Part shown: in pieces, positions 1 through 31,079 of the stretch
Layout of the letters: each line of letters begins with the position of its first letter
Numbering within the stretch: position 1 is the stretch's first letter
Assembly: GCA_015061845.1 (NCBI GenBank)
Contig: SUVT01000016.1
Span: 1 to 37,644, forward strand
DNA: 37,644 bases
Reading direction: 5' to 3'
From: Lentisphaerota bacterium
Lineage (GTDB): Bacteria; Verrucomicrobiota; Lentisphaeria; Victivallales; UBA1829
The notes under the pieces: generated by a model
The model's input: only the letters and a program-made list of their open reading frames with translations
What the model was told of the DNA's origin: nothing
The model's database searches: none
Program-made: the position numbers and the translations under genes

Positions 1-230
1 CCCATCATAAAGGCTTCTTTGATGACAGCCTGTGCCTGGGGTGGTCCCATGGTGATAACGGTCAGCTCTGCACCGTATTCCTGTTTGAACCGCAAAGCGG
101 TTTCCAATGCGTAAAGATCGTATGGATTCATTTTTGATTCCACACCATCCCGTTTCAAAACGCCGGTGACGGGGTCGATTTCAACCTGAGCCGTCCCCGG
201 AACCTGCTTGATACAGACAGCAATTTTCAT
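1..230 (-). CDS. etfB: Electron transfer flavoprotein beta subunit, N-terminal part
   Basis: The first 76 codons of a gene that runs off the left edge of the window. The protein begins [18 protein letters not shown] and continues with [15 protein letters not shown] and [11 protein letters not shown], which is the characteristic N-terminus of the ETF beta subunit. This subunit forms a heterodimer with EtfA, binds AMP and FAD, and passes electrons from acyl-CoA or other dehydrogenases to the quinone pool or to bifurcating partners. The ATG is preceded by an AGAGGT ribosome binding site, and a promoter candidate lies at 268-295. An etfA gene would be expected just outside the window. The family call is secure, but the electron donor cannot be inferred from this fragment. 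Confidence 0.93.
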
Positions 231-267
231 AAGATACCTCTGCTTAAAAATCCCTTCATTATCAACT

Positions 268-295
268 AATATAGCATTGCCGCCATACATTACAA
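268..295 (-). promoter_or_regulatory. Candidate sigma-70 promoter of etfB
   Basis: Reading the minus strand, TTGTAA (290-295) and TATATT (268-273) are separated by 16 bases and lie about 40 bases before the etfB start. They fall between the terminator at 303-344 and the gene, so etfB is probably transcribed independently of the upstream glycan operon. This is a match by eye only. Confidence 0.5.
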
Positions 296-302
296 ATCAT
301 AC

Positions 303-344
303 TTTTAAAAAAGAAAGAGCAATGGAAGATTTTTTCCATCGCTC
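303..344 (-). terminator. Rho-independent terminator of the 370-11320 operon
   Basis: On the minus strand an 11-bp stem (arms 334-344 and 317-327, with one G-U pair) closes a 6-base loop. It is followed by a T-rich tail (TTTCTTTTTT) at 307-316. It sits 26 bases past the stop codon of the SGNH hydrolase gene, so it marks the end of the seven-gene operon. Confidence 0.8.
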
Positions 345-369
345 CAAGTGAAAAACTTTTACAACATGC

Positions 370-1857
370 TTATTTTGCAAGGAATTTCAGAATTTCATCA
401 GCGATCACTCTGCCGCCGAGAGGACTCAGGTGAACACCATCTGAAACATAAAGATCCTTGATGGAGGGTGCAGCCCGCATGACAGAGAGAATGTCGATGT
501 AAGGAATGTTATTGGCAGCGCAGAATTTTTTGTTTTCTGCGTGGTAGAGATCAACCAGATCTTTCTTTCCGTACATGACCATATTATTGGAAGGAGCCCA
601 TTTCTTTGCGCGATCCAGGAACAGCTGTTCATCGGAGGGAGAGGGCGCAATCATGATGATCTTTGCCTGAGGGAATTTGCTCTTGAGGATCTTGCAGATA
701 TTGGTCAGGCATTTCTGCTGCAATGCGGGCGGTGTTTCCTGTTTGGTGAAGTTGGTCTTACGGAACGATCTGGTGTCATTCTGTCCGAGGAACAGGAAGA
801 TGATATCAAACTTTTCATCGAAAAGCCCGTTGTACATATTCTGTCTGTACGCATAGTTTCTCTTGACCAGCGCACCGTTCAAGCGGTCTTCCATGCGTTT
901 GCAGAAGTCGCCGCCGACTCCGGCATTGCGGAAGGTGAATTTTCCGGGATTGTACTTGTTGACCCAGAAACTGATGCGGTCGATGTAGTTATAGCCGCGA
1001 TAGAAGTCGGAGAGAGAGTCTCCGAGGAAAAGAACTCTTACCGGTTTGGCAAGTTTGATTTTCTTTGCAGTATTGCTGGTTGCCTGATAGACATTTTCCG
1101 GCTGGACTTCTACATAGGCAAGGGCATTTTTTCCGTTATTGGAAGCTGAAATTTCCCAGAAGCCGGGTGTCAGCTTGTCAGTTGCAACAGAGATTTTTCC
1201 ATTGGAATCAGCTTTGACTTTCTGATAAGTGACATTGTTGCCGTTTTTCAGAGAAATGGTAAATTCCTGATTCTTGAGACTGGTTGAAAATGTGACTGCT
1301 TTGACCGGATTTTTGACAGAAGCCATCTGGATATCTTTATCAGACTTCACAGAACCGGATGCAGGAACAACTGTTTCCATGTGGAAAGATTCCACATAAA
1401 CTTTCCCGACACCCTGAACTTCAATGAAAGAAAGAAGTTTTTCAAACCGTTCATTCAGCTTGCAGGTGAATGTGAAAGTCTGGAACTCAGAGGTGAGATC
1501 TCTTGCTCCGTCACGGCAATAGTTGGGCTGACCTTTTCCGAAATGATAGGACAGTGCCCCGCAGGCAAGTTTCCCTTCGCCTTTTGCTTTGACAGTGATT
1601 TTAACAGTATCGCCGGGGAAATAATTGATATTTCTGTTGTAGCCCAACGCTCTGCCGAAAAGTTCGCTGCCCCGTTTGCCGGATTCCAGAAGAAGACAGT
1701 CTTTGCCGTCAACTTTTACTTTAGAGACTTTTCCAGCCCAGTAAGCCGGAGCGTTCCAGCCGCGGAGATTTTTTGCAAAAGTATCATTTTTCAGAACTTC
1801 TGCGGAAAGAGGCAGAATACATGCTGCAAGCAGCAATGATGTGATGAGATGTTTCAT
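370..1857 (-). CDS. Secreted SGNH/GDSL-type hydrolase with N-terminal binding-like domain
   Basis: A 495-residue protein with a signal peptide (MKHLITSLLLAACILPLSAE). Residues 20-165 look like a beta-sandwich carbohydrate-binding module and are followed by a short linker domain. The C-terminal half is an SGNH hydrolase: GDS at 279-281 (nucleophile S281), Gly313 in NAGVGG, GQND at 358-361 (N360), and DGVHLSP with D473 and H476. SGNH enzymes remove acyl or acetyl groups, and in a glycan operon a carbohydrate esterase is most likely; the substrate is unknown. The start at 1857 was chosen over an in-frame ATG 24 codons upstream because it begins the signal peptide and has an AAAGGA site. That site lies in the 3' end of the preceding gene (5-base gap), which suggests translational coupling. 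It is the last gene of the operon. Confidence 0.86.
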   Translation of the reverse strand: MKHLITSLLLAACILPLSAEVLKNDTFAKNLRGWNAPAYWAGKVSKVKVDGKDCLLLESGKRGSELFGRALGYNRNINYFPGDTVKITVKAKGEGKLACGALSYHFGKGQPNYCRDGARDLTSEFQTFTFTCKLNERFEKLLSFIEVQGVGKVYVESFHMETVVPASGSVKSDKDIQMASVKNPVKAVTFSTSLKNQEFTISLKNGNNVTYQKVKADSNGKISVATDKLTPGFWEISASNNGKNALAYVEVQPENVYQATSNTAKKIKLAKPVRVLFLGDSLSDFYRGYNYIDRISFWVNKYNPGKFTFRNAGVGGDFCKRMEDRLNGALVKRNYAYRQNMYNGLFDEKFDIIFLFLGQNDTRSFRKTNFTKQETPPALQQKCLTNICKILKSKFPQAKIIMIAPSPSDEQLFLDRAKKWAPSNNMVMYGKKDLVDLYHAENKKFCAANNIPYIDILSVMRAAPSIKDLYVSDGVHLSPLGGRVIADEILKFLAK

Positions 1858-16547: not shown

Positions 16548-17204
16548 TTACATTTCAGTCAAAACAGTCGAAAGAAGTTTTACACATCCCGAAAAACTGT
16601 TGACCGTATATGATGTTTCCGCATCCGCTTTCACACCGAACCCGTATTCACAGAAAACACTTTTTACCCCTGCGGCTTTTGCAAAATTCAAGTCCGTGTG
16701 GTTGTCTCCGATGACGTAAATATTCTCCGCTGGCACTTCGTATTTTTCCATCAGAGAAAACAGTGCATCCGGAGCAGGTTTCAGCGGAAAACCGGAACCT
16801 CCGCCAATATTTTCCGCCAGATACGGCATCAGCCCGAAGTGTGTGAGAATTTTTTCACTGACAACTACCGGTTTGTTGCTGACAACTGTCACGATCCATC
16901 CGGCGTTATGCAGTTCCCGGATCCCTTCTGCAACGCCATCGTAGAGAAATGAATCCACTACCGGATCATTTGCATAGTGCTGAACCATTTTCCCGACAGC
17001 TTCTTCCAGCGGAACCGGAAGCCGGACATCAGAAAAAGAGCGTTCGATCAATTTTTTTGCGCCGTCTCCGGTGAAAGATGCGACCTTCTCCGGCGAAAGC
17101 GGCGCAAAACCATAATCAGCTCTTGTTCTGTTGACGGATGCTGCGATTCCTCCGACAGAGTCAAGCAGCGTACCGTCAAGGTCAAAGACAAGAAGTTTTT
17201 TCAT
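16548..17204 (-). CDS. gph: HAD-family phosphatase, phosphoglycolate phosphatase-like
   Basis: A 218-residue HAD hydrolase. Motif I is FDLDGTLLDS (D8, D10), motif II VTVVSNKP, motif III the Lys of PLKPAPDAL, and motif IV VIGDNHTDLNFAKAAG. An alpha-helical cap lies between motifs I and II. This is the Gph/PGP pattern; many relatives act on other small sugar phosphates. The start at 17204 (MKKLLVF) was chosen over an in-frame start 49 codons upstream because the catalytic motif must be near the N-terminus. It starts 8 bases after the secreted 300-residue protein, so it is the last gene of the DUF4838 operon and might dephosphorylate a sugar phosphate from that pathway. The gene symbol reflects the family, not a proven substrate. 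Confidence 0.85.
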   Translation of the reverse strand: MKKLLVFDLDGTLLDSVGGIAASVNRTRADYGFAPLSPEKVASFTGDGAKKLIERSFSDVRLPVPLEEAVGKMVQHYANDPVVDSFLYDGVAEGIRELHNAGWIVTVVSNKPVVVSEKILTHFGLMPYLAENIGGGSGFPLKPAPDALFSLMEKYEVPAENIYVIGDNHTDLNFAKAAGVKSVFCEYGFGVKADAETSYTVNSFSGCVKLLSTVLTEM

Positions 17205-17212
17205 TGCTCTGT

Positions 17213-18115
17213 TCAGCGGGTGAATGCTGCTTTTTCTGCGTTGAGTTTCTTGTCGAAATCGGCGTTGGAGATGGGCATCTGCTGCTGCCACATTCCAAAC
17301 TTGAACTCTTTCATAGCAGGATTCAGGTTGAGCTGGATCCAATTTGTCCATTCGTTGGTGGAGCGGATCTTTCCTTTGACAACGCTTGTCTGGTCGATCT
17401 GAAGCCAGACAGGTCCCTGTCCTTTGCTCTTGTCTTTCGCAGAACCGTCAAACTTGGTGTCGCGGAAAATGAAAGAGGTGTCATCTTTGGCAAGCGGATA
17501 AACTTTTGCTGAAGCCGGATAGGTTCTTGCATTTGTCACGATTTCCCGTCCATATTCCGGACCACCCCAGATTGGAACCTTTTTTGCATTTCTTGCAAGT
17601 GTTGAGGGAATGCAGGAGAAGGTCATAACCGCATTTTTTATATCTTCCAGCGTGTTTGCAGAAGGTCTGATCATGCCCCAGAGAACAGGAGAATCCGGAC
17701 GCATATAGAAAATGACATCAAGTTTGCAGCCATCGTAGTTCAGAGCGATCTTGATCCCGGCGTTTCTGCCCTCTTTCCACGGCTGAACATCACTTGTTTT
17801 CACGTTAAGTTTTTCCATGCCGATTCCGTTGACATCAAGTTTGAAACTTCTTGTCAGCGGACAGAACCCGAAATCACCAGCCCAGATACGGATCCACGTC
17901 TGAGTCGGTTTGTTGTTCATCGGTTTTGTCATAGCAAGAATGACTTCATAAGAGTTCAACTGATTGGAGATTTTTGCGCCCTGACGAACCGCCCAGGTGT
18001 TCGGCTGATAAATATACATCTGCCTGACATCTGCTCTGACAGGTGCATAGTTTTGAGCAAAAACCGCTCCGGATAACAATGTAAGGGCTGCGATTGTAAT
18101 GTTTTTCAGGTTCAT
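17213..18115 (-). CDS. Secreted partner protein of the DUF4838 module, copy 2
   Basis: A 300-residue secreted protein (signal peptide MNLKNITIAALTLLSGAVFA) with a probable all-beta mature part. It is a paralogue of the 20682-21557 product. Shared blocks include LNYDG(C/A)K, FYMRPDSPVLWG versus LFMRPDSPVLWG, DDTSFIFRDTKFDGSA versus ADTSFIFQDGELDGSA, the following K..G P-W-ID-T, and a C-terminal P/R-ISNA-KL-AAFT block. I do not recognise a known family. Its start lies 1 base after the stop of the DUF4838 gene, whose last codons provide GGAG, so the two are translationally coupled. Strict pairing with DUF4838 in both copies suggests that they act on the same extracellular glycan or form a complex. 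Confidence 0.75.
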   Translation of the reverse strand: MNLKNITIAALTLLSGAVFAQNYAPVRADVRQMYIYQPNTWAVRQGAKISNQLNSYEVILAMTKPMNNKPTQTWIRIWAGDFGFCPLTRSFKLDVNGIGMEKLNVKTSDVQPWKEGRNAGIKIALNYDGCKLDVIFYMRPDSPVLWGMIRPSANTLEDIKNAVMTFSCIPSTLARNAKKVPIWGGPEYGREIVTNARTYPASAKVYPLAKDDTSFIFRDTKFDGSAKDKSKGQGPVWLQIDQTSVVKGKIRSTNEWTNWIQLNLNPAMKEFKFGMWQQQMPISNADFDKKLNAEKAAFTR

Positions 18116-18116
18116 T

Positions 18117-20657
18117 TTATTCTCCTTTCCCTGCGAATTTAATGAGACCGTACATATTCAAATTGTGATTATTTCCCAATGTCATAGCGGTTCCGCTGTA
18201 TTCTCTCTCTTTTCCGGCTTTGTTGCGGACAACATTGCAGTGCCAGGTGTCGTAAACTTTCGGAATGGAGTTTTCTGTTTTGAATACAGAGAACGGAATG
18301 TAAAATTCAGCGGTCCAGTACTCTTTCCCATACTTCGATTCCAGTTTGAATCCGGGTGCTTTCCAGAAAGAATCGAAGGGCTGCGGGATCGGCAGCAGAC
18401 GGTGGGTTCCCAGGAACATCTGTTTCAAGGGGTCAAAGACAAACTGAAACTCCACTTCTTTTCCCAGACCGGGTGAGAAGAAAATTTCAAAATTGTCATT
18501 GTAAAACACATCTTTGTTTTTGTCCACCGTTGTGGGATATTTCGTTTCAAAAAGACCATAGATCCCGGTTTTATCCCATGCGAGTTTGATGGATGCCGGG
18601 TATTTCGGCTTAGTGCTGGAACCTTTGGGATCGATCAGTTTCATAGGCTTGACGTTCGTCCAGAACGCTTCATCTCCTTTCCCGTCGATGGTGACTTTGT
18701 CCCTGCTGAGCAGCTGATAAACACTGTAAACCGGGCGTTCATAGGAGAGCTGATTCTTCACAGATTCGATTGCCTTTGCCCATGGAGCCATGAAGAGTTT
18801 CAACCGTTTTTCTTCCACGCTTCCGGGCTTGACAGATTTCTGAGCTTTTGCAAGCAGAGCTTCCATCTTCAGCAGTTCCGGCATGGGATAAACCACATTC
18901 CGGGCAGTTCCTTCCGCATCAATAGCATATTTCATGTAACAATCCCGGAGAAACTGGTGGAACTGACGCAGATATTTTCCGGTTTCTTTGCCATAGAACG
19001 GTTCCCAGTGGGCATCGATCGCCGCCGCGGCATCCCACCACGGGTTCCACATGGAACGGTATGCCGCATAGGAAGAATAGTAGTAATGCCAGATATGCCC
19101 GGGCGCATTGATACAATGGTCAAAGAACATTGTGGTTCTGCCGAAATATTTTCCGAGAACTTTCGGGATATCTCCAACCATTTCCCCGTTGACCGCCTGC
19201 ACAAAGGGGTTCGTTCCGGTATAGAGCCAAAGCCCCTGAACCGGACGGTTTCCAAGGGATTCATACCATTCACGGGCAACCTGCTTGATGAATTTCTGTT
19301 TTTCCTTGCTGCGGATCTTGTTCGGGATATCGCCCAGACAGAGGAAGACTTCCGTATTTTCGGGAAGGGTCCAGCGGGGATCATCTGCGGCAAACTGGAC
19401 ATTGTAATATGCCATGATATAAAGTTTTGTACCGGGAATTTCCTTCTGCAGTTTCTTTGCAAGATACTGATGAAGTCTGCCGTAAACATTTGCCATTGCA
19501 GCAGAACGGGCTCCTTTGATATCGGTATAACGCTTCAAATCCTTTTCCGTCATCAGCCCAAGTTTCCGCACGATTGGATGATTGATCAGGTCAGAGTCCG
19601 GAAGGAGCGTATCGCAGATCCCGAAAGAGAAATAAGTGGAGTTGCAGGCATGGATATATCCGCCTTCGTCGATTTTTCCGTTGGACTGATAGAACTTTTT
19701 CGCAGAACTGATCAGCAGATCTGCAAATTCCAGATTGACCGGATCATAGTAATTCCCGATATGAGCTTTCGGATTGTACCAGAAGTTTCCGGAGGGGGAT
19801 TTGTAGAAAATCGTTTCCAGCTTATCGGGGTATGCCTTGGCGATTTTTTCCGGAAACGGACAATGTGTTCCGCCGCCGGGGATGGTTCTGCCCATGCGCC
19901 AGCGATCCCAGAAAAGATGATCCGTGTCGCTCAATTTCCCCAGATAAGGCTCCCAATGCTTTCTTGAAGCGGGCTTGCGGATGCTGTCTCCCAGATAGTA
20001 GATCCCGTTTCTGCCGTTCATGTAAGGAGCGTCGGTGTAAGAGACCGGTGTAAGAGTCAGATTCTTTACAGCGGGCCAGAGCGTTCCGTATTCTCCGGGG
20101 AAGAAGTAACGGACACCGAGAAAGCGTTCCACAAAGTCATACGCGGCATATTTTGTGCCTGTGCTGGAGCCTCTTGCTTCCAGCGGTTTCATGTTATAGC
20201 CCTCAATGAGAGATGAGTCGTTCCCTGCAAGAATGATACCCCGTTCAAAGGTCTTGACAGCCAATCCCTGCGGCGGGAGTTTCTTCACATCCACACCATA
20301 CTTCCGTGTGATGGCGTTATCACCGACAACGATCATGAATTTTGCTTTTGCGGCATCTTTCACATCCAGAACGACCGGTTCGAGCCCGGTGCATTTTTTG
20401 ATGGCTTCTTTCAGGATCACAACAGCCGGAGCGATACTTTTTTCTGTTTTATTTTTCCGCTGCATCCGGTTTTCTGCTTGAAGATCGGCAACGATGGCAA
20501 AATTCAGCTTTCCATTTTCCACCATTTTGACGGGTGCATGAGACGGTGCTTTTTCAAACTTGACCGGAACGAGTTCTACGGTTTTGACATCGTATGCAGA
20601 GAGAACTGCAGTGATTCCGGATAGAATCACTCCAAAGATTTTTTTGATACTGATCAC
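18117..20657 (-). CDS. Secreted DUF4838-like protein with C-terminal CBM9-like domain, copy 2
   Basis: An 846-residue secreted protein. It starts with GTG (20655-20657) behind GGGAGG. After the signal peptide, residues about 30-230 resemble the N-terminal domain shared by GH20 and alpha-glucuronidase-type enzymes (FMIVVGDNAITRKYGVD, RGIILAGNDSSLIEGYN, YAAYDFVERFLGVRYFFPGE). The middle (about 300-620) is the DUF4838 region with a probable TIM-barrel fold (IMAYYNVQFA, GLWLYTGTNPF, HWEPFYGKETGKYLRQFHQ). The C-terminus (about 660-840) is CBM9-like (KVTIDGKGDEAFW, WDKTGIYGLFE, NDNFEIFFSPG, WTAEFYIPFSVF). It is clearly paralogous to 21561-24071. The role is likely glycan hydrolysis or binding; no catalytic pair is assigned. 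Confidence 0.8.
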   Translation of the reverse strand: MISIKKIFGVILSGITAVLSAYDVKTVELVPVKFEKAPSHAPVKMVENGKLNFAIVADLQAENRMQRKNKTEKSIAPAVVILKEAIKKCTGLEPVVLDVKDAAKAKFMIVVGDNAITRKYGVDVKKLPPQGLAVKTFERGIILAGNDSSLIEGYNMKPLEARGSSTGTKYAAYDFVERFLGVRYFFPGEYGTLWPAVKNLTLTPVSYTDAPYMNGRNGIYYLGDSIRKPASRKHWEPYLGKLSDTDHLFWDRWRMGRTIPGGGTHCPFPEKIAKAYPDKLETIFYKSPSGNFWYNPKAHIGNYYDPVNLEFADLLISSAKKFYQSNGKIDEGGYIHACNSTYFSFGICDTLLPDSDLINHPIVRKLGLMTEKDLKRYTDIKGARSAAMANVYGRLHQYLAKKLQKEIPGTKLYIMAYYNVQFAADDPRWTLPENTEVFLCLGDIPNKIRSKEKQKFIKQVAREWYESLGNRPVQGLWLYTGTNPFVQAVNGEMVGDIPKVLGKYFGRTTMFFDHCINAPGHIWHYYYSSYAAYRSMWNPWWDAAAAIDAHWEPFYGKETGKYLRQFHQFLRDCYMKYAIDAEGTARNVVYPMPELLKMEALLAKAQKSVKPGSVEEKRLKLFMAPWAKAIESVKNQLSYERPVYSVYQLLSRDKVTIDGKGDEAFWTNVKPMKLIDPKGSSTKPKYPASIKLAWDKTGIYGLFETKYPTTVDKNKDVFYNDNFEIFFSPGLGKEVEFQFVFDPLKQMFLGTHRLLPIPQPFDSFWKAPGFKLESKYGKEYWTAEFYIPFSVFKTENSIPKVYDTWHCNVVRNKAGKEREYSGTAMTLGNNHNLNMYGLIKFAGKGE

Positions 20658-20681
20658 GAAAAATATCCTCCCATATAATTT

Positions 20682-21557
20682 TTATTTGAATGTAAATGCA
20701 GCTGGTTCTTTCTTCAATTTTTCAGCCATTTCTGCATTGGAGATCCGTGCTGCCGGGTGCCACAATCCGAAATTTACGACCTGACAATCTTTTTTCAGGT
20801 CAAATTTCAGGAAGATTTTCCACGAATTGCGGACAAATGCCTGACTTCTGGAAAGGTTTGTCCGGTCGATCCAGAACCAGCAGGGACCGGAACCCTTATC
20901 TTCAGCCGAACCGTCAAGTTCTCCATCCTGGAATATAAAACTGGTATCAGCAGATGTCAGATTGACCCATTTGTTGTTGTGGGAATATTTCGTTGCAGGC
21001 GTGACAAGCTCCCGTGTGTAGGCGTTGCTGAACAGTGTCTTCTGGTTCACGATCTTCAACATCGAGGGCAGTGCCTGAATGTCGATCGTTGCTTTCCGGA
21101 TGGGATCAATGCTGTCTTTGTCATAGATCAGAGAACCCCAGAGGACAGGAGAATCCGGGCGCATGAAGAGACGGAGCGTAAACTTTGCACCGTCATAGTT
21201 CAATTTCAGTTCCATCCCGGAATGGTCGCCATCCTGCCAGCGGGTGATTTTCTCTTTGGTGAAGTCCAGCTCACTCATCTTATAGCCGTTGACCGTAAGA
21301 GAGAAAAAGCCGCCGACAAAGTTGCAGTTTTTCTTTCCGACGAGATTCATTGCAAAGACTTCACCTTTTTCATTAACGGGCTTCGTCAAGGTGAACTGCA
21401 GCGGATAGGTGCAATATTTATTGGCGATGGTCACACCCTCCCGCAGAGAATACCGCTGGGGTCTGTAAACCCGTGCGGGTCCCTGCTGAACCTGAACAGG
21501 AGAGGCAATAACCGCTGCCGTTCCAATAAGAAGAGTTGTCAGCAGAAGTGATTTCAT
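20682..21557 (-). CDS. Secreted partner protein of the DUF4838 module, copy 1
   Basis: A 291-residue protein with signal peptide (MKSLLLTTLLIGTAAVIAS) and an all-beta-looking mature part: ARVYRPQRYSLREGVTIANK, FFSLTVNGYKMSEL, LNYDGAKFTLRLFMRPDS, PVLWGSLIYD, DTSFIFQDGELDGSAED, FGLWHPAARISNAEMAEKL. It is a paralogue of 17213-18115, with the same block order. No known family or catalytic motif is recognised. It starts 3 bases after the stop of the copy-1 DUF4838 gene, using AAGGAG in that gene's last codons, and is followed 24 bases later by the copy-2 DUF4838 gene. The beta-sandwich feel suggests a carbohydrate-binding or structural role. Confidence 0.75.
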   Translation of the reverse strand: MKSLLLTTLLIGTAAVIASPVQVQQGPARVYRPQRYSLREGVTIANKYCTYPLQFTLTKPVNEKGEVFAMNLVGKKNCNFVGGFFSLTVNGYKMSELDFTKEKITRWQDGDHSGMELKLNYDGAKFTLRLFMRPDSPVLWGSLIYDKDSIDPIRKATIDIQALPSMLKIVNQKTLFSNAYTRELVTPATKYSHNNKWVNLTSADTSFIFQDGELDGSAEDKGSGPCWFWIDRTNLSRSQAFVRNSWKIFLKFDLKKDCQVVNFGLWHPAARISNAEMAEKLKKEPAAFTFK

Positions 21558-21560
21558 TTT

Positions 21561-24071
21561 TTAATCTCCTTTTCCCATGAATTTAATGATTCCGAACATG
21601 GAAAGATTTCTGTTCGTTCCCAGAGTCATAGCTGTTCCGCTGTATTCATTTTGGGCTCCGGTTTTGTTGCGGACGATATTACAGAGCCAGTTCTGATAAG
21701 CACGGGGAGCAGGTAAATCAAAGACTTTGAAGGGAACATAAAATTCAGTTGTCCACTCATTCCCCTTATTGACCATCGCGATTTTCACGCCTTGAGCCTT
21801 CCAATGTGTATCAAAGGGCTGAAGGATCGGCAGGAAACGCTGGGTTCCGAAGAATTTCTGATTCAGCGGGTCAAAGGCGATTTGATAGACCGTTTCCTTC
21901 TTCATTCCGGGAGAGAAGATCACTTCAAAATTGTCATTGAGGAATACGGATCTGTTCTTGCTGAATGTGGGCTTGTAGGGCGTCTTTGTGAACCCGTAAA
22001 TGCCTGTTTTATCCCAAACGAGCTTGATTTCGGCAGGATACTTCACCGGAGTTCCGGTTCCTTTGGGATCAAGCAGTTTCATGGGCTTGACCTTTGCCCA
22101 GAACGCTTCATTTCCCTTTCCGTCAACATTCACGTTTTCTTTGGGCAGAAGCTGACGGACTTTATAGACCGGGCGTTCATAGGAAAGCTGATTCCTGACA
22201 GAGCTGATTGCATTTTTCCACGGAGCCATGAAGAGTTTTAGCCGTTTCTCTTCCACAGATCCGGGCTTGACAGATTTCTGCGCTTTTGCCAGCAGCTCTT
22301 CCATCTTTCTGAGTTCCGGAATGGGATAGATGATGGACTGTCCGTTATCATCGTTGAGCGCATATTTCATATAGCATTTCCGGAGAAGCTGATGGAACTG
22401 CCGCAGATACTTTCCGGTCTCTTTCCCGTAGAACGGTTCCCAGTGGGCATCGATCGCTGCCGCTGCGTTCCAGTTCGGATTCCATTCGCTGCGGTAGGCT
22501 GCGTAAAGGGAGTAATAGTAAAACCACATATCCCCGGGAATGCCGCAGCACTGACCGAAATAAATATGGGTGTTGCCAAGATATTTACCGAATTTTTTCG
22601 GGATGTCTCCCACAAATTCCCCGTTGATCGCCAGCACAAAGGGACTTGTACCGGAATAGGTCCAGATTTTCTGAACCGGACGGTTTCCGAGAGAGGTGTA
22701 CCACTCTTCTGCAATCTTGAGCATCTGTTTCATATGTCGCGGACTGCGGACTTTGTTCGGAAGATCGCCAAGACAGAGCTGGACTTCTGTGTTCGGCGGA
22801 AGTGTCCAGCGGGGATCATTTCCGGCAAAACGGACGTTGTAGTACGCCATGATCCAGAGTTTTCTTCCGGGCCATTCCTGTTGGATACGCTTTGCCAGAT
22901 ACTGGTGGAAACGGGCGTAGATATTTGCCATGCCGGAGTTTGCACCGCGCTTCATATCCTGCACGGTCATCAGGTTGAGTTTCCGGACAGTGGGATCATT
23001 AAAGACTTCAGCATCGGGCATAAGCGTATCGCACATCCCGAAAGAAATGTTGGTCAGGTTTGTACAGGCATAACCGCCTTCGTTGATTTTTCCATTGGAG
23101 TTGTAGTATCTCTTCAGAGAATCGACCAGAAGATCGGCAAAGGCGAGATCGACTACATTGAAATAGTTTCCGACATGCCCTTTCGGGTTGTACCAGAAAT
23201 TTCCGCCGGGGGAGGTGTAGAAGATCGTTTTCAGCTTGTCGGGGAAGGATTTTGCCATCCGTTCCGGACGGGGATTGTGTCCGCCGGAACCGGGCAGATC
23301 TCCGCCAAGACGCAGCTTCTCATAAAACTTTTGATCTTCGTTCGTGAGAGGTCCGAGCCACTGCTCCCAGAACTTCCGGGGACGTCCGGGAGCAAGACAG
23401 GAGATGACAGAGTAGATCCCGCCGCGAGTCTGGAAGTAAGGGGCATCTGTATAAAAAACAGGCGCAATCGTAAGATTTTTCACTTCCGGCGTCAATGTAC
23501 CATATTCCCCGGGGAAGTAGTAGCGGACTCCGAGAAACCGTTCCACAAAGTCATAAGCTCCATATCGTGTTCCAGTGCGGGGGCCAAGCTGTTCCAGCGG
23601 CTTCATGTTGTACCCTTCGATCAGAGAAGAGTCATGTCCGGCAATGATGATACCCCGGGGAAATGTTTTTACAGCAAACCCCTGATTGGGGAGCTTGAAC
23701 ACATCGATGCCGTTTTCTCTGGTGATGGAGCAGTCGCCCACAACGATCACATTTTTTCCGGCAGGGATATTTTTGACATCCACCACCTGAACTTTTTTAC
23801 CGGTACATTTTTCGATCGCTTCCGAAAGAATCTGGATGGCAGGTGCAATACTTTTCGCACTTTTGCACTTGGATGCCATTCTCTGTTCCGCTTTCAGGTC
23901 TGCAGCGATCACAAAGTTCAGTTCCCCGTTGACAACCATCTTCACCGGGGCGTGCGACGGAGCTTTCTGATACTTTACCGGAAATACTTCTGGTGAATTC
24001 AGATCGTAGGCATGAACTCCGGTCATAAGAAGACACAGCGGGAGCAGCCAGACTTTCCATGTCAATTTCAT
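21561..24071 (-). CDS. Secreted DUF4838-like protein with C-terminal CBM9-like domain, copy 1
   Basis: An 836-residue secreted protein (signal peptide MKLTWKVWLLPLCLLMTGVH). The domain order equals that of its paralogue at 18117-20657: a GH20b/alpha-glucuronidase-like N-terminal domain (VIVVGDCSITRENGIDV, YGAYDFVERFLGVRYYFPGE), a central DUF4838 region (IMAYYNVRFAGNDPRWTLP, KIWTYSGTSPFVLAINGEF) and a C-terminal CBM9-like module (NVNVDGKGNEAFW, WDKTGIYGFTKTPY, WTTEFYVPFKVF). Long stretches are identical between copies, for example HWEPFYGKETGKYLRQFHQ and KAQKSVKPGSVEEKRLKLFM. The start has GTGAGGT overlapping the upstream stop, a 7-base gap. It is the first secreted protein of the operon. Confidence 0.8.
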   Translation of the reverse strand: MKLTWKVWLLPLCLLMTGVHAYDLNSPEVFPVKYQKAPSHAPVKMVVNGELNFVIAADLKAEQRMASKCKSAKSIAPAIQILSEAIEKCTGKKVQVVDVKNIPAGKNVIVVGDCSITRENGIDVFKLPNQGFAVKTFPRGIIIAGHDSSLIEGYNMKPLEQLGPRTGTRYGAYDFVERFLGVRYYFPGEYGTLTPEVKNLTIAPVFYTDAPYFQTRGGIYSVISCLAPGRPRKFWEQWLGPLTNEDQKFYEKLRLGGDLPGSGGHNPRPERMAKSFPDKLKTIFYTSPGGNFWYNPKGHVGNYFNVVDLAFADLLVDSLKRYYNSNGKINEGGYACTNLTNISFGMCDTLMPDAEVFNDPTVRKLNLMTVQDMKRGANSGMANIYARFHQYLAKRIQQEWPGRKLWIMAYYNVRFAGNDPRWTLPPNTEVQLCLGDLPNKVRSPRHMKQMLKIAEEWYTSLGNRPVQKIWTYSGTSPFVLAINGEFVGDIPKKFGKYLGNTHIYFGQCCGIPGDMWFYYYSLYAAYRSEWNPNWNAAAAIDAHWEPFYGKETGKYLRQFHQLLRKCYMKYALNDDNGQSIIYPIPELRKMEELLAKAQKSVKPGSVEEKRLKLFMAPWKNAISSVRNQLSYERPVYKVRQLLPKENVNVDGKGNEAFWAKVKPMKLLDPKGTGTPVKYPAEIKLVWDKTGIYGFTKTPYKPTFSKNRSVFLNDNFEVIFSPGMKKETVYQIAFDPLNQKFFGTQRFLPILQPFDTHWKAQGVKIAMVNKGNEWTTEFYVPFKVFDLPAPRAYQNWLCNIVRNKTGAQNEYSGTAMTLGTNRNLSMFGIIKFMGKGD

Positions 24072-24078
24072 AGTTACC

Positions 24079-25044
24079 TCACTTTGCGGCTGTAAATTCT
24101 TTCTTTAAAAACTCTTTGACAAAAGCGGACTCTTCCGGACATTTTTTGACCTCGCGGTCTCCAAGGATCACAAGATCATGGATCTTTCCATCTGCAAGAT
24201 ACTTTCTGGCGCGTTTCAACTGGATCTCAAGGAACTTTTTCCCGTTGGGGTTCGCTGCTGCAAAATAATCGTAGATGAAAATTCCAAGCATGATCGGTTT
24301 CCCGGGAAATGCCAGACGGAATTTTTCAATGGCAAGGTCAAGATTCGGAAGCTGATATTTGTAACCGACCCAGAGATTGATGGCATCAACATAGGGTTCA
24401 ACCAGTTTCAGGAAGGGGGAATCCATCTCTCCGACATAAACGACAGAGTAAAGCTTCAGATCCGGGTTATGTTTTTTCAATGCTTCGGAAATCTTTTTGA
24501 CCTCTTTCAACGAGATGTTACGCCCAAAATTCCCGATCAGATCGTCGATCATCCCGCCTTTGATATTCGGATATTTCAGGGAAAGTTTACTGATGAGTTC
24601 TGCATTCTCTTCATCGGTTCCGCAGACCACGCCAGGTGACCGGCTGATGGAGGAGAGCTGGCAAATCAGCTTTTTCGCATTCTTATGGATCCTGATTGCA
24701 TTTTCATCGGTTGGACCATACATATAAACAACGTTTTCGAGGTCGAAATATTCCGCCCCTTTCATGGCGCAATCCGGTTCATCGGAACCGCCCCAGTAAG
24801 GTGTGGGACCGCCCCAGATCCAGGTGTTTTCTCTGGAAAAATGTTCCGGACCTTCCTGATCCATCAGAGCAAATGTTTCTGCAATCGCTTTATCCAGAGA
24901 TTTATTGTATGCTGCCAATTTTTTCCGTTTTACCGGAGAATCAGGCTTTCCGGCTCTGATCCCGCGATCAATTTCAATTCTCAACTGTTCTGCAGTCGTG
25001 CCGATCTCAAATGTTTTTTCCAGTGCTTTCTTTAACATTTCCAT
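24079..25044 (-). CDS. Cytosolic TIM-barrel-like protein of unknown function, paralogue A
   Basis: A 321-residue soluble protein with no signal peptide. It has a repeated strand/helix pattern suggestive of a TIM barrel: TWIWGGPTPYWGG, ENVVYMYGPTDENA, KKLICQLSSISRSPG, YPNIKGGMIDDL, LKLYSVVYVGEM, VDAINLWVGYKY, FPGKPIMLGIFIYDY, LVILGDREVKKCPEE. The 30060-31079 product has the same blocks in the same order. The acidic MIDDL strand end could be catalytic. I do not recognise the family. It is first in the operon, behind a consensus promoter. AGAGGA is only 3 bases from the first ATG but 9 bases from an ATG two codons later, so translation may begin at 25038. Confidence 0.7.
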   Translation of the reverse strand: MEMLKKALEKTFEIGTTAEQLRIEIDRGIRAGKPDSPVKRKKLAAYNKSLDKAIAETFALMDQEGPEHFSRENTWIWGGPTPYWGGSDEPDCAMKGAEYFDLENVVYMYGPTDENAIRIHKNAKKLICQLSSISRSPGVVCGTDEENAELISKLSLKYPNIKGGMIDDLIGNFGRNISLKEVKKISEALKKHNPDLKLYSVVYVGEMDSPFLKLVEPYVDAINLWVGYKYQLPNLDLAIEKFRLAFPGKPIMLGIFIYDYFAAANPNGKKFLEIQLKRARKYLADGKIHDLVILGDREVKKCPEESAFVKEFLKKEFTAAK

Positions 25045-25217: not shown

Positions 25218-28200
25218 TTATTTTCTCTTAATCTGACACTTTCTTGATAAGCTCCAGGTTTTTACGTCTTTATCAGTAAAATGTTTTGGAATTGTGATGC
25301 TGGCAAGATTTTTACAACCCCAGAAAACGTTTTTTCCCATTCCCATTCCTCGTTCTTCGTTTTCTTTTACCTTTTCATCTTTAGGCTGAAGTCTGACACT
25401 TTCTGGAATTTCAATAGTTTTCAGACTTGAACAATAAGCGAATGCATACTCTTCAATGGTCTTTACTCCATAGAAAATGGTAATATTCTCCAGGCTTGAA
25501 CAAGCCTGGAATGCCTGCTTCCCTATTCTCCGGACTCCGGGCAAAACACGGAATTCTTTCAGTGCAGAACATCCGCCGAATGCTTTTTCGTCAATCAGAT
25601 CGACATCAGAAGGGTATGTCACCTTCCTGAGAGATTTGCAATAAAGGAAAGCTTCTTTGGGGATTGTTTTCAGTTTCGGGGGTAAGCTGATGCTTTCAAG
25701 CCCGCTTTCTGCAAAAGCAGATACTCCAATTTCTGTTACATCCATCGGTATTTCGATTTCTTTCAGCTTTTTACATCCCGTGAAAGCTCTTCCTCCAATT
25801 TTAGTGAGGCTGTCTCCAAAAACAACTTTTTGCAAATTGGAAAGCCCTGCAAAAAATCCAGCCGGTATTTCCTTTAACGCTCTCGGAAGTACTACGTATT
25901 CAAGAGATTTATTCCCGGATATGATATTATATGGCAGTTTTTCCAAAAAGTCAGGGAGTACGAGCTCTTTCAGACTGGTACAATTGGCAAATGCATTTAT
26001 TCCGATAGAATTGACCTTGTTATGCAATAAAAGTTTTTTCAGACCGGTACAGCCTTCCAGAAGTGAATGCGGAACTGTTGTTACTCCGGGAGGGAGAATA
26101 AACTCCTGCAGACTGGTACAGTTGGCAAAAGCTTTGCTTCCGATAGAATTGACCTTGTTATGCAATGAAAGTTTTTTCAGACCGGTACAGCCTTCCAGAA
26201 GTGAATGCGGAACTGTTGTTACTCCGGGAGGGAGAACGAACTCCTTCAGACTGGCACAACCGCTGAATACATTTCCTCCGATTTCTGCAATTTGATCATG
26301 CAGCGTAATTTTTTCAAGACCTGAACAACCAAAGAATACGCCATCTTGGATTTTTGTAACATTCTTCGGAATACGGATTTGTCTCAAACTTGAACAACCG
26401 GAGAATGCGTACTCGCCTATAGATTTCAGACATTGGCTTAATGGTATGGATTCAAGATTTTTACATCCGGCAAATGCTTCATCTCCAATTTCTGAAATGC
26501 CCTGCATCATAGTCGGAGCACTGATCACTACATTTTTGCCCTTAAAAAGGTCAAAATCAATGATAACTTCTTCCGATGCCGTTGAAATATCCTGTGCTGA
26601 TACCGGTGCCTTGATCACAACTCTTTTTCTTTCAAAAAGATTAAAATCAATAATGATCCAGTCGTAGGGAAGATCAATATTTTTAAGATTTGAACATCCA
26701 CTGAAAACACCATTGTTTATGACAGTAATTCCTTCCGGAATTTTGATGGATGTCAAGCCGGAACAATTTTCAAAAGCGTAATCTTCGATATCATAAAGAC
26801 GTTCCGGGAGAATAATTTCCTGTAATTTCCTGCAACCGTAAAAAGCTTCTTTCTGGATCGTTGACAGGTCTTCAGGAAGCGTGATTTTCTCAAGATTGGC
26901 ACAGCGGTTGAACGCGCTTTCGCTGATTTTAGAAACCCCTTCCGGAATTATGATTTCAGTAATGGCACTGCCCAGAAATGCAGCCTGTCCGATATCTGTT
27001 ACAGATTCAGGAAGCGTGATTTTTCTCAAGTTCCTGTTATACAAAAAGGCGCCTTCTCCGATCTTTACGAGACTGGATGGAAGCACAATCTCTTCCAGCC
27101 TGCTGCAGCCGGAAAACATATAATCATTCAGCGTGGTAATTTCTGTTTGGATGTCAACTTTCCGGAGAGATCTGCAATTCAGGAAAACGTAGTCCTCTAT
27201 TTTCATGATTCCCTTCGGGATTGTAATTTCCGTTAATGCTGTACAATTCAGGAACAGATACCGGCGCAATTGCTTTATTTCTGCCGGAATTTTGATGAAT
27301 GTCAATTTTCTGCAATTATAAAAAGTTCCGCTTCCAAGGGAAGTCATTTGTTCAGGCAGTTCGATTCGTACTAAACTCTGACAATTTGCAAATGTATATT
27401 TCTGAATCGTCTTGAGAGTTTTGGGGAGTTCCACCATTTTCAGTGAAGTACAATTATTGAAAGTATATGCCGGCAGGGTTTCGACCCCATCTTCAACTTT
27501 GAGATTTGTCAAAGCTAAACATCCATCAAAAACAGAGTGTCCTATTGTTAAACCTTTTGGAATAACAACAGATTTGAGTCCTGTTCTGGAAAAAGCTCCG
27601 GTATCCAGATTCTTTAATTTTTCCGGCAGATTTATATGAGAAAGATATTGGCATTGATAAAAAGCTCCTTCGCCTATGCTTGTTAAACCGGTCGGCAATT
27701 TGATCTTAGACAAATTCCTGCATCCCATAAAGGCTTCTTTTTCAATAACTTTTAATTTTTCAGGCAACGTGATCGCTCTTAAACCATGGGATTTGTTTCT
27801 TCTGGCAAAGTATTTTTCATGTTCCTGTATATATTTTTTCCTCGCATCTTCTTTTGAGACACTCTGCTGTCTTGGATTCCGCTGGTGGGTAGGTTTATAA
27901 CTCTCTTTTTGATATTCATATTCAAAAGAAGTTGAAGTTTTTTCTATTGAACCTTTCTTATTTTTGTCTCCTTTGTAATATTTGTTGAATTTGAATGATT
28001 CTTCTTCACGCCCTCCGTAATTGTTATAGGCGTAATCATTCTTATTCTCTTTTTCAATTACAAAAGCCTGTTTTCCGATTTTTTCAACCTTTCCTGGGAT
28101 GTTGATAACGGTCAAGTTCGGACAGTTTGCGAAAGAACGTGGTGCCACTTCTTTCAAGGCTTCCGGAAGTTTGACATTGCTCAGCGTTTCACAACCTTCA

Positions 28201-29828
28201 AAAACACTGTTTCCAAAGGTTTCGATGGTCGGAGGTAATACAATTTTCTGGAGTCTCAAACAGTCAAAAAATGCCTCATTCCCAATGCTGAGCAGGGTGT
28301 CGGGAAGATTAACTTTTGTCAAACTGTAACAGTCTGCAAAAACCCGGTCTCCAAGTTCTTTCAATCCTGTTTTTAATATTATTTCAGATAAGTTCTGACA
28401 ATCAAAGAACACTTCCTGACCAATAGATTCAACACCTGCCGGAATTTCGATTTTTTTCAGTGCATTGCATCCGCTGAATGCATTGGCTTCGATCTTTTTC
28501 AGACCTTTCTGTGCAAATTTAATAGTGTTTAATGCACTGCATTTTTCAAACATTCTCGCCCGGATAACTTCTGTTTTTTCGTGCAATGTTATCTTTTTCA
28601 AATTTCTGCATCCGGAAAAAACTCCAGCTCCGAAGTCTGTTTTGGAATCCGGGAAATTCAGGTACTCTATCCCTGCGCAGGAAGCATAAGCATAATCACC
28701 GATTTTTATGTTGAGAACAAGACTTTCTGTTGTCAAAGAACTGCATCCATAGAAAGCATAGGCCTTGACCTCTTTTATCCCGGAAGGCAGCTTTATTTTT
28801 TTCAAATTTGTACATCCATAGAAGACTCTTTCGTTAATAACTTTTATGCTTTCCGGAAGTGTAAGATTCAGAAGACATGTGCAATTGGCAAAAGCTTCGC
28901 CCTCAATTTCTGTAACACTCTCCGGAATATTGACATCCACCAGCAATTTACAGCCGGAAAATGTTTTCTTTCTGATAATTGATAATTTTTTGGGAAGAGA
29001 AGCCTTCTGCATACTGGAACAATTTTCAAACGCTGCGATCCCAATGTTTTGAACCGTATCTGGAATTTGAACTTCCGGTAATTTTATACATCCGGCAAAG
29101 GCATAATCTGCAATGTTGATAATGTCTTCCGGAACAGTGTAAACGCTTCCGATACTCCGGGGAACATAGAGCAATGTTTTACTCTTGATTTCTATCAATT
29201 CACCAGATTTACCAAGTTTAAAGAACTCATTCTTGCCAGTAAGTACGACTTTTCTGACTTTATTCAAACTTCCGGGAGTGATTTTCCTGACGGACTCCGG
29301 AATATGCAGTTCCAGAACATCTTTTTGAACAGAACCCGGTTTTATATCAATTGCTCTGATGGTGTTGTCAATAACAAAAACTTTCTGCTCTTGATCTTTA
29401 AAATCGAATCCAACAACTTCGCCGGAATCCAGAAAAAATCCTTTTCCAGGCTCTTTTGTATAATTTTCGGCTGCCTCAGGCTCTTGCTGCGGAACAGGTT
29501 GTCCCTGTTCCTGTTGAGAAGTTTGAGCCGGAGCTTGTGCAGGAGCCGCAGCGGTTTTCTTATCATCTTTTTCTTCTTTATCATCGCCGCCGGTCATTTT
29601 CCAGCCGACGATGATCGCAACGATGATACCCACCAGAATCAGGATATTTTTAACAACACCAAAGTCAATTCCGGAAGACTTCTTGCCTTTTTTTCCGGAT
29701 TTTCCAGCCTTTCCGGATTTCGGTTTTGTGATCGTAAAGGTATTACCACAGTCACATTCAGCAACTTCACCGATCATATCTTCAGTGACATCATATTCCT
29801 GTTTACAGGCAGGGCAACGTATAATCAT
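25218..29828 (-). CDS. Giant BspA-like leucine-rich-repeat protein with zinc ribbon and membrane anchor
   Basis: A 1536-residue protein. Residues 1-37 form a zinc ribbon (CPAC at 5-8, CDC at 25-27), then a Lys/Gly-rich linker, one membrane helix (about 58-76, VVKNILILVGIIVAIIVGW), and a Gln/Ala/Pro/Glu-rich spacer. From about 165 to the end are dozens of 23-residue BspA/TpLRR (LRR_5) repeats of the form 'aF.gC.sL.ki.lP..v..Ig'. Positive residues before the helix predict the zinc ribbon in the cytosol and the repeats outside. A charged segment (about 588-679) interrupts the repeats. BspA-type repeats mediate adhesion or surface protein contacts. The gene is more AT-rich than its neighbours. 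The ribosome site AGGAG is 11 bases from the ATG. The family call is secure; the ligand is unknown. Confidence 0.9.
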   Translation of the reverse strand: MIIRCPACKQEYDVTEDMIGEVAECDCGNTFTITKPKSGKAGKSGKKGKKSSGIDFGVVKNILILVGIIVAIIVGWKMTGGDDKEEKDDKKTAAAPAQAPAQTSQQEQGQPVPQQEPEAAENYTKEPGKGFFLDSGEVVGFDFKDQEQKVFVIDNTIRAIDIKPGSVQKDVLELHIPESVRKITPGSLNKVRKVVLTGKNEFFKLGKSGELIEIKSKTLLYVPRSIGSVYTVPEDIINIADYAFAGCIKLPEVQIPDTVQNIGIAAFENCSSMQKASLPKKLSIIRKKTFSGCKLLVDVNIPESVTEIEGEAFANCTCLLNLTLPESIKVINERVFYGCTNLKKIKLPSGIKEVKAYAFYGCSSLTTESLVLNIKIGDYAYASCAGIEYLNFPDSKTDFGAGVFSGCRNLKKITLHEKTEVIRARMFEKCSALNTIKFAQKGLKKIEANAFSGCNALKKIEIPAGVESIGQEVFFDCQNLSEIILKTGLKELGDRVFADCYSLTKVNLPDTLLSIGNEAFFDCLRLQKIVLPPTIETFGNSVFEGCETLSNVKLPEALKEVAPRSFANCPNLTVINIPGKVEKIGKQAFVIEKENKNDYAYNNYGGREEESFKFNKYYKGDKNKKGSIEKTSTSFEYEYQKESYKPTHQRNPRQQSVSKEDARKKYIQEHEKYFARRNKSHGLRAITLPEKLKVIEKEAFMGCRNLSKIKLPTGLTSIGEGAFYQCQYLSHINLPEKLKNLDTGAFSRTGLKSVVIPKGLTIGHSVFDGCLALTNLKVEDGVETLPAYTFNNCTSLKMVELPKTLKTIQKYTFANCQSLVRIELPEQMTSLGSGTFYNCRKLTFIKIPAEIKQLRRYLFLNCTALTEITIPKGIMKIEDYVFLNCRSLRKVDIQTEITTLNDYMFSGCSRLEEIVLPSSLVKIGEGAFLYNRNLRKITLPESVTDIGQAAFLGSAITEIIIPEGVSKISESAFNRCANLEKITLPEDLSTIQKEAFYGCRKLQEIILPERLYDIEDYAFENCSGLTSIKIPEGITVINNGVFSGCSNLKNIDLPYDWIIIDFNLFERKRVVIKAPVSAQDISTASEEVIIDFDLFKGKNVVISAPTMMQGISEIGDEAFAGCKNLESIPLSQCLKSIGEYAFSGCSSLRQIRIPKNVTKIQDGVFFGCSGLEKITLHDQIAEIGGNVFSGCASLKEFVLPPGVTTVPHSLLEGCTGLKKLSLHNKVNSIGSKAFANCTSLQEFILPPGVTTVPHSLLEGCTGLKKLLLHNKVNSIGINAFANCTSLKELVLPDFLEKLPYNIISGNKSLEYVVLPRALKEIPAGFFAGLSNLQKVVFGDSLTKIGGRAFTGCKKLKEIEIPMDVTEIGVSAFAESGLESISLPPKLKTIPKEAFLYCKSLRKVTYPSDVDLIDEKAFGGCSALKEFRVLPGVRRIGKQAFQACSSLENITIFYGVKTIEEYAFAYCSSLKTIEIPESVRLQPKDEKVKENEERGMGMGKNVFWGCKNLASITIPKHFTDKDVKTWSLSRKCQIKRK
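25971..26246 (-). repeat. Near-identical 138-bp tandem duplication inside the LRR gene
   Basis: Units 25971-26108 and 26109-26246 differ at only about ten positions by eye and include a stretch of roughly 70 identical bases. Each unit encodes two 23-residue repeats (46 residues). The high DNA identity, in contrast to the divergent other repeats, points to a recent duplication or gene-conversion event. Confidence 0.88.
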
Positions 29829-30059: not shown

Positions 30060-31079
30060 TTACTGATTCTGCAGATATTCGCGGATGGCACTTGCCACTT
30101 CGGGCCACTTCTTGATTTCACGGTCACCAAGAATGATAACACCGATCACATCGCCTTTTGCCATGTATTCGCGGGCTCTGTCAAGCTGATATTTCAGCAG
30201 TTCGATCACGTTGCCGATATCAGCTCTGCCGTATTCGTGGAGGAAGATCCCCTGAATGATGGGCTTTCCGGGGAATGCTTTTTTGCATGCCGCAATGTAT
30301 TCATCATATTCCAGAATGTCATCTTTGTGCCAGAGCCAGAGGTTGATCACATCCATGTACTGCTGGATCAGAGAGAAGTCTTTGTTAAGTTCATGTGCAT
30401 AGACAACTCCGAACATCTTCAGCTTGTCATTGTATTTTTTCAGACCTCTGTAGCGGGCTTCAAAGGATTCCGGGAGCGCAACTTTCAGGAAGGGGGTTGT
30501 CACGTCATCGCACATTGCACCGATGATGTTGGGATACTTCAGAGAGAGCTGGCTGAGGTATTCCGCATTTTCTTCGTCAGTGAAAGAACCCTGCGCCCCG
30601 GGAGTACGGCACTGGGAGTTGATCTGACAGAGCATCCGTTTGTACTTGCTGTGCATGGTCATCATTTTGTCATCGGTGGGACCGTAAACGTAAACCACGT
30701 TTTCTGCGCCGTAGTAATCGGCACCTTTGACGAGGGTGTCATCAGCCATGGTTCCGCCCCAGAAGGGAGTCGGTCCGCCCCAGACCCAGAGATTTTCTCC
30801 GGTGAGCTTTGCCATTTTTGCCGGATCTGTCTTGGGGAATGTGGACAGGATTTCCAGCATGACTTTGTCCAGTTCTTCATTTTCGGGATTGAGATATCCA
30901 GCCCATTCCACGCTGCCGCGAACTCTCAGCGGATCATCTTCCACATAACCTTCCGGGGAGGGAGCTTCTGTTTCACCGAGTTTTACTTCCGGATGTGCTT
31001 TCTTCACTTCACGGACTTTCAGGAGCAGGCGTTCCAGAGCGAGATTGAGCTTTTTTCTTTGTTCTGCGCTGATCTGCAT
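30060..31079 (-). CDS. Cytosolic TIM-barrel-like protein of unknown function, paralogue B
   Basis: A 339-residue soluble protein related to the 24079-25044 product. Matching blocks are LWVWGGPTPFWGG, AENVVYVYGPTDDKM, KRMLCQINSQCRTPGAQ, YPNIIGAMCDDVTTPF, LKMFGVVYAHEL, MDVINLWLWHKDD, FPGKPIIQGIFLHEYG and VIILGDREIKKWPE. The N-terminal 60 residues are longer and charged. No signal peptide is present. The conserved Trp/Gly cluster and the DD after a strand suggest a carbohydrate-active or sugar-binding barrel, but the family is not recognised. It is monocistronic: promoter region shared with a divergent AraC regulator, terminator downstream. AAAGGA lies 9 bases before the ATG. Divergence from AraC suggests it is that regulator's target. 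Confidence 0.72.
   Translation of the reverse strand: MQISAEQRKKLNLALERLLLKVREVKKAHPEVKLGETEAPSPEGYVEDDPLRVRGSVEWAGYLNPENEELDKVMLEILSTFPKTDPAKMAKLTGENLWVWGGPTPFWGGTMADDTLVKGADYYGAENVVYVYGPTDDKMMTMHSKYKRMLCQINSQCRTPGAQGSFTDEENAEYLSQLSLKYPNIIGAMCDDVTTPFLKVALPESFEARYRGLKKYNDKLKMFGVVYAHELNKDFSLIQQYMDVINLWLWHKDDILEYDEYIAACKKAFPGKPIIQGIFLHEYGRADIGNVIELLKYQLDRAREYMAKGDVIGVIILGDREIKKWPEVASAIREYLQNQ

Follow-up and report, generated by a model that had tools for sequence, protein, structure and literature searches.

Two similar gene pairs that stand one behind the other, each composed of a gene for a large putative enzyme and a gene for a smaller secreted partner, raise the questions of how the pairs came to lie together and whether the members of a pair work as a unit. 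We addressed both for a stretch of 37,644 nucleotides (the window), contig C115 of a genome (G000) of 3.2 Mb and 83% completeness. Based on a single-protein scan and three named loci, the closest named relatives of this genome are MAGs of Lentisphaeria recovered from the cecum of roe deer and the colon of sheep. A first-pass annotation, made from the sequence alone, had read positions 16,548 to 25,044 as a tandem duplication of a module consisting of a DUF4838/CBM9-like protein and a secreted partner of an uncharacterized family, and had predicted from the constant pairing that the two form a functional unit.

The gene pairs of the window and their history

All four genes are real (Table 1). 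On the minus strand they run in the order enzyme A, partner A, enzyme B, partner B, each enzyme gene being followed by a partner of ~295 aa after gaps of 3 bases (A) and 1 base (B), and both proteins of each pair begin with a signal-peptide-like stretch, as read from the sequence. The range first given to the module is too wide, as it takes in a HAD phosphatase gene at one end and an unrelated gene for a 321-aa protein at the other. Both were rejected as module members. The 321-aa gene is not upstream of the pair in genome G001, and profile matches to its product were limited to two in the window and to L060 and L064. The HAD gene is retained at the site of pair B in G002, a sister species, yet is no widely recurring neighbor. 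The 321-aa protein is related to a 339-aa protein of the window; relatives also lie near two other DUF4838 loci (L060 and L064), and neither window protein has a Pfam or NCBIfam match.

Table 1. Positions of the gene pairs and other features in the window, with predicted domains of enzyme A given by residue
Feature	Position	Strand	Length	Description
DUF4838-like enzyme A	21561..24071	-	836 aa	Putative signal peptide; N-domain + TIM barrel; C-terminal CBM9
Enzyme A, N-domain + TIM barrel	residues about 22-631			Predicted; GH115/GH84/GH20-like
Enzyme A, CBM9	residues 634-835			Predicted
Partner A	20682..21557	-	291 aa	Putative signal peptide; predicted galactose-mutarotase-like beta-supersandwich
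DUF4838-like enzyme B	18117..20657	-	846 aa	GTG start; C-terminal CBM9
Partner B	17213..18115	-	300 aa	Same family as partner A
HAD phosphatase gene	16548-17207			Outside the two-gene module
321-aa protein gene	24079-25044		321 aa	Unrelated; outside the two-gene module
339-aa protein gene	30060-31079		339 aa	Related to the 321-aa protein
Leucine-rich-repeat protein gene	25218-29828		1536 aa	BspA/HupY-like; N-terminal CxxC zinc-finger-like motif; one membrane stretch

The strong similarity reported for both members of the module holds for the enzymes (63% identity between A and B), but that of the partners is moderate (33-34%). In neither the enzyme tree nor the partner tree are A and B sister sequences: B clusters first with G002:C4 and C8, next with the C96 pair, and A lies apart. 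AU tests, for which groups were picked after the first tree had been inspected, rejected a single clade uniting A, B, and the G001 orthologues of both (p 1.4e-6 for the enzyme and 4.3e-5 for the partner). When the wider B clade was included, they did so again (enzyme p 3.6e-4; partner p 0.0275, the weakest of these results). Further, G002 carries a B pair without A at the same site, flanked by the HAD gene, a SIS-CBS gene, and others, three of these flanking genes being 91-97% identical, and has an A-type enzyme without a partner at another place. Separate clustering of the copies, which the first-pass annotation had set down as evidence against its reading, is in part what we see, with A and B in different branches of both trees. 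A recent tandem duplication is ruled out by these branches and the AU tests; together with the B site of G002 that lacks A, they mean that the window holds two older paralogous pairs that were brought adjacent. Pairs can nonetheless duplicate as segments: next to a second B-like pair in G002 (L061/L136, G002:C8) lies a piece of the HAD gene, the scar of a segmental duplication.

Families, folds, and conserved residues

The DUF4838/CBM9 label is apt in that both domains are detected, but the matches are weak. PF16126 scores 23.1 bits in enzyme A and 25.3 bits in enzyme B, under the Pfam gathering cut-off of 26.6, and CBM9_1 scores 21.7 bits in A and 26.1 bits in B, respectively below and above its cut-off of 23.4. 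We therefore class both as DUF4838-like and not as DUF4838 members. The C96 paralogue, with its neighbors, scores 27.4 bits for PF16126, and a profile of the enzyme clade finds canonical DUF4838 ORFs of the own genome full-length, with E down to 4.6e-41 (L008), so that the window enzymes are profile-homologous to canonical DUF4838 over their whole length. NCBIfam has no match for either protein, and a PDB sequence search with the enzyme profile returned only CBM9-like chains at E < 0.01. A single table row links DUF4838 to GH163 (PMC9870897), and the one GH163 whose characterization is described in PMC10154615 cuts GlcNAc-beta1,2-Man on complex N-glycans, removing LacNAc antennae.

The model of enzyme A (36 sequences, single chain, pLDDT 92.5) comprises a barrel plus CBM9. 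Residues 22-630 resemble GH115 (4zmh, Z 15.9, rmsd 4.6, 453 aligned) and GH84 (2v5c, Z 13.3, rmsd 6.0, 420 aligned), with GH20 also similar, and residues 634-835 resemble CBM9 (7nwn, Z 21.5, rmsd 2.4, 176 aligned). As modeled, the enzyme is a GH115/GH84/GH20-like barrel plus CBM9 and a putative glycosidase. H265, D348, Y410, and N427 are invariant in 36/36 aligned enzymes; three partnerless relatives outside this alignment have Glu instead of H265. At residue 506, which lies at a barrel strand end, 31 of the 36 clade members have Asp, and enzyme B keeps Asp at the equivalent site. The canonical proteins differ here (the acid is Glu in 12/13 DUF4838 alignments), and so do enzyme A and its orthologues in G001 and G002, which have Gly; enzyme A may be inactive or catalytically altered. 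The window enzymes also differ from DUF4838/GH163 in being paired with a separate supersandwich protein.

The family of this partner is uncharacterized, as had been supposed: its 46 members gave just scattered single-member matches to Pfam and NCBIfam and no named family, and a PDB sequence search found no sequence relative (best E 0.88). Prediction of the structure of partner A alone, one of the checks proposed at the outset, yielded a confident galactose-mutarotase-like beta-supersandwich (46 sequences, single chain, pLDDT 93.1, pTM 0.89). The fold matches in the PDB are mostly enzyme domains or mutarotases. GH38 mannosidase domains (7vqo, Z 14.2, rmsd 3.6, 206 aligned), the GalNAcase NagBb (Z 13.8, rmsd 3.5, 208 aligned), and the aldose epimerase 3ty1 (Z 13.6, rmsd 4.4, 234 aligned) tie for the top place, and the other matches include chains of a GH174 fucanase (8jd7, Z 12.1, rmsd 3.7, 229 aligned), the YidC P1 domain (3blc_B, Z 12.1, rmsd 3.8, 204 aligned), and GH97 (2zq0, Z 11.9, rmsd 3.4, 206 aligned).

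Mutarotases use a His/Glu pair. No His or Glu is conserved at 80% or more across the 46 partners, in which D211 is the sole invariant residue (46/46), R182 occurs in 44/46, and N274 is also conserved. Thus, the partner has the fold of galactose mutarotase/aldose 1-epimerase (3ty1, GalM 4bze) but not its conserved His/Glu, and it differs further in being exported and linked to glycosidases; a galactose mutarotase enzyme was rejected on account of the missing pair. That the partner is itself some enzyme, whether a mutarotase/epimerase, a lyase, or a hydrolase, acting before or after the DUF4838-like enzyme, would suit a fold common to aldose epimerases and near that of the GH174 chains, as well as the conservation of D211 and R182, but the lack of a conserved His or Glu makes it quite unlikely, and a single invariant D211 is what would be expected of a binding domain. 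The YidC match raises another alternative, that the partner helps the large secreted enzyme to assemble or to be exported, and the partner is indeed coupled to several large secreted enzymes. We consider a helper very unlikely, given that carbohydrate enzymes commonly have this fold, with scores that equal or exceed that of YidC, and that only 3 of the 37 DUF4838 genes in the own genome are accompanied by a partner.

Pairing, fusion, and co-inheritance across related genomes

Those 37 DUF4838 matches appear to be a large set for a single genome of this size, and its three close partners all follow a DUF4838-like gene. With a wider profile, the own genome also yielded two partners next to GH42-like genes, one (C66) as a domain fused to CBM9 and another at C59. 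Across the order, the co-occurrence search that had been proposed found the partner in 26 of 137 genomes, with 56 matches (two in the window itself), and the surroundings of all 56 were inspected. Forty adjoin a DUF4838-like gene, and in 38 cases the partner follows that gene immediately on the same strand; at L054 one gene lies between, and at L057 the enzyme comes after the partner. In 26 of 37 measured pairs, enzyme and partner are separated by -4 to +4 bases. Another 11 adjoin a GH42-like enzyme, with one gene between at L127 and a CBM9 gene between at L125; the GH42 label reflects Pfam matches in nine of these neighbors, the GH42 trimerisation domain only at L129, and length and layout at L130. 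Two partners are fused to CBM9 in frames of 1129 and 1154 aa. In the remaining cases, the DUF4838-like gene is two genes away (L128), or the partner adjoins an 874-aa protein without a Pfam match (L131) or a beta-helix gene (L073). Relative to the syntenic locus in G004, most of the DUF4838-like gene at L073 has been replaced and the partner has no signal peptide, so this one clear orphan is the remnant of a pair.

Viewed from the enzyme side, all 15 genomes of the order with a listed DUF4838-like gene of at least 650 bits also hold a partner somewhere (at most seven candidates were scored per genome, and the counts refer to listed genes only). Seven of the 47 such listed genes have no adjoining partner, among them the G002 gene that is closely orthologous to enzyme A (85% identity), and their genomes hold partners elsewhere; the partner is therefore not strictly needed in cis.

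In the wider phylum, the partner was found in 26 of 387 genomes drawn. There were 22 new matches, and 20 of these were inspected in context, with GH42-like calls made by a profile built from the earlier GH42-like neighbors and the place of the partner at L185 taken from the phylum profile search. Two lie beside a DUF4838-like gene and 12 beside a GH42-like gene. At L184, partner domain and GH42-like enzyme share one 1512-aa frame; at L181, the partner lies at the end of an 847-aa frame; and L177 and L190 are contig starts with no recognized neighbor. The other two partners are fused to CBM9, at L187 beside a GH42-like gene and at L188; with the two fusions from the order (L132 and L133), such partner-CBM9 frames measure 1120-1154 aa. 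CBM9 itself may be found inside DUF4838-like enzymes, fused to the partner, or as a separate gene (L125, L175, L178, L182, L186, L189). The GH42-like enzymes of these bacteria (~1150-1500 aa) thus resemble the DUF4838-like enzymes in being paired with or fused to the partner, but they represent another barrel family and their CBM9 is often a separate gene. Barrel, CBM9, and supersandwich look like a three-part kit divided in different ways.

A partner specific to DUF4838 is ruled out by these neighbors and fusions. The first-pass annotation had named occurrence of the partner without DUF4838 as a point against its module, and to the extent of the 11 GH42-like neighborhoods and the CBM9 fusions this is borne out. 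The pairing of enzyme and partner genes is real and, because the partner also occurs with GH42-like and CBM9 proteins, broader than first claimed.

Where enzyme and partner are immediate neighbors (37 loci), the 128 flanking proteins fell into 73 clusters, 59 of them single. The flanking genes are scrambled, and the only widely recurring cluster, a prepilin-type protein, is present at 24 of these loci (confirmed with Pfam on six examples). Mirror trees of 39 enzyme-partner pairs gave a distance correlation of r = 0.87, compared with 0.35 for the best of 2000 permutations. Since the permutations leave in species relatedness and the shared descent of linked genes, this value supports co-inheritance and is no proof of contact. 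Further, co-duplication of linked genes also gives mirrored trees, which counts against taking the two proteins as subunits of one enzyme. Adjacency might even be inherited linkage, the pair being copied together without functional need, and pairs do move as a unit (the second B-like pair of G002 with its HAD fragment) and enzyme genes do occur without an adjoining partner. We regard mere linkage as highly improbable, however, in view of the retention of the pair across genera while other neighbors changed and of the association, including fusion, with an unrelated barrel family.

The frequency of pairing, the scrambled flanks, and the mirrored trees leave a constant two-gene functional unit with an uncharacterized partner family well supported. 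What falls away from the original prediction is the restriction to DUF4838, and the unit is more aptly described as a supersandwich partner, a CBM9, and a TIM-barrel glycosidase, DUF4838 being the commonest barrel.

A putative two-subunit exported glycosidase

Relatives keep enzyme and partner together or fused, so the two probably work as one machine. A supersandwich as a covalent domain beside the barrel is a known architecture in many glycosidases. GH97 (SusB, BtGH97a) likewise combines supersandwich and TIM barrel (PMC2670981), and 2zq0 matches the partner fold, but in GH97 the supersandwich is covalent, whereas the partner is a separate gene with no PDB sequence similarity found. According to PMC2670981, Glu194 of BtGH97a belongs to the super-sandwich (residues 1-317) and is among the four glutamates that act as Ca ligands in the barrel, so a supersandwich that shapes a barrel's active site has a precedent. 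An accessory domain need not do so: in the account of GH31 accessory domains in PMC8245568, none takes part in oligomer contacts and PA14 alone extends to the active site.

Taken together, the directly observed gene pairing, fusions, and correlated trees, the flank scrambling, the fold models, and the GH97 precedent lead us to favor, at about even confidence, the reading of each pair as a two-subunit exported glycosidase in which a familiar domain, the partner, serves as a subunit of its own. The large subunit would be the DUF4838-like (distantly GH163-like) TIM-barrel enzyme with its CBM9, and the small subunit a non-catalytic galactose-mutarotase-like beta-supersandwich. The partner would share a transcript with the enzyme, be exported by virtue of its own signal peptide, and assemble with the barrel outside the cytoplasm, where it may pack against the barrel/CBM9, form part of the substrate-binding wall, and set specificity. 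Copies A and B would probably serve related glycans.

Alternatively, the partner could be secreted to bind glycans on its own, capturing the enzyme's substrate with no stable complex between the two. Its own signal peptide, the absence of conserved catalytic-type residues apart from D211/R182/N274, and its faster divergence than the enzyme between A and B, as in substrate binders, would all fit, and the enzymes already carry CBM9. This is nevertheless unlikely, as the fusions to GH42-like/CBM9 proteins and the tight tree agreement favor physical association, and the fold matches are mostly enzyme domains or mutarotases.

What is known is the supersandwich beside a barrel, and what is new is a free-standing unnamed family, common to two barrel families and both split and fused. 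A search of a collection of open papers found nothing on split or heteromeric glycoside hydrolases. Should the partner prove to be an obligate subunit, many of the DUF4838-like and GH42-like enzymes in gut Lentisphaeria would seem to lack activity if produced without it, and members of the partner family would flag multi-subunit glycosidases. A bolder version, which we think improbable, is a general split-glycosidase kit in which a single family of free supersandwich subunits completes, in trans, the active sites of both the DUF4838-like and the unrelated GH42-like enzymes, and that in the window an impaired A (Gly506), an intact B, and the two partners form a mixed four-protein complex.

Other genes accompany these loci. 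The prepilin-type protein (N_methyl, often DUF1559) is encoded directly upstream of the enzyme gene, for example, at L024, L053, L058, L085, and L087, and was recognized by motif at 12 of 22 GH42-like partner loci. LacI-like regulators, read from the sequence, lie upstream of some operons (L142, L143, and L147).
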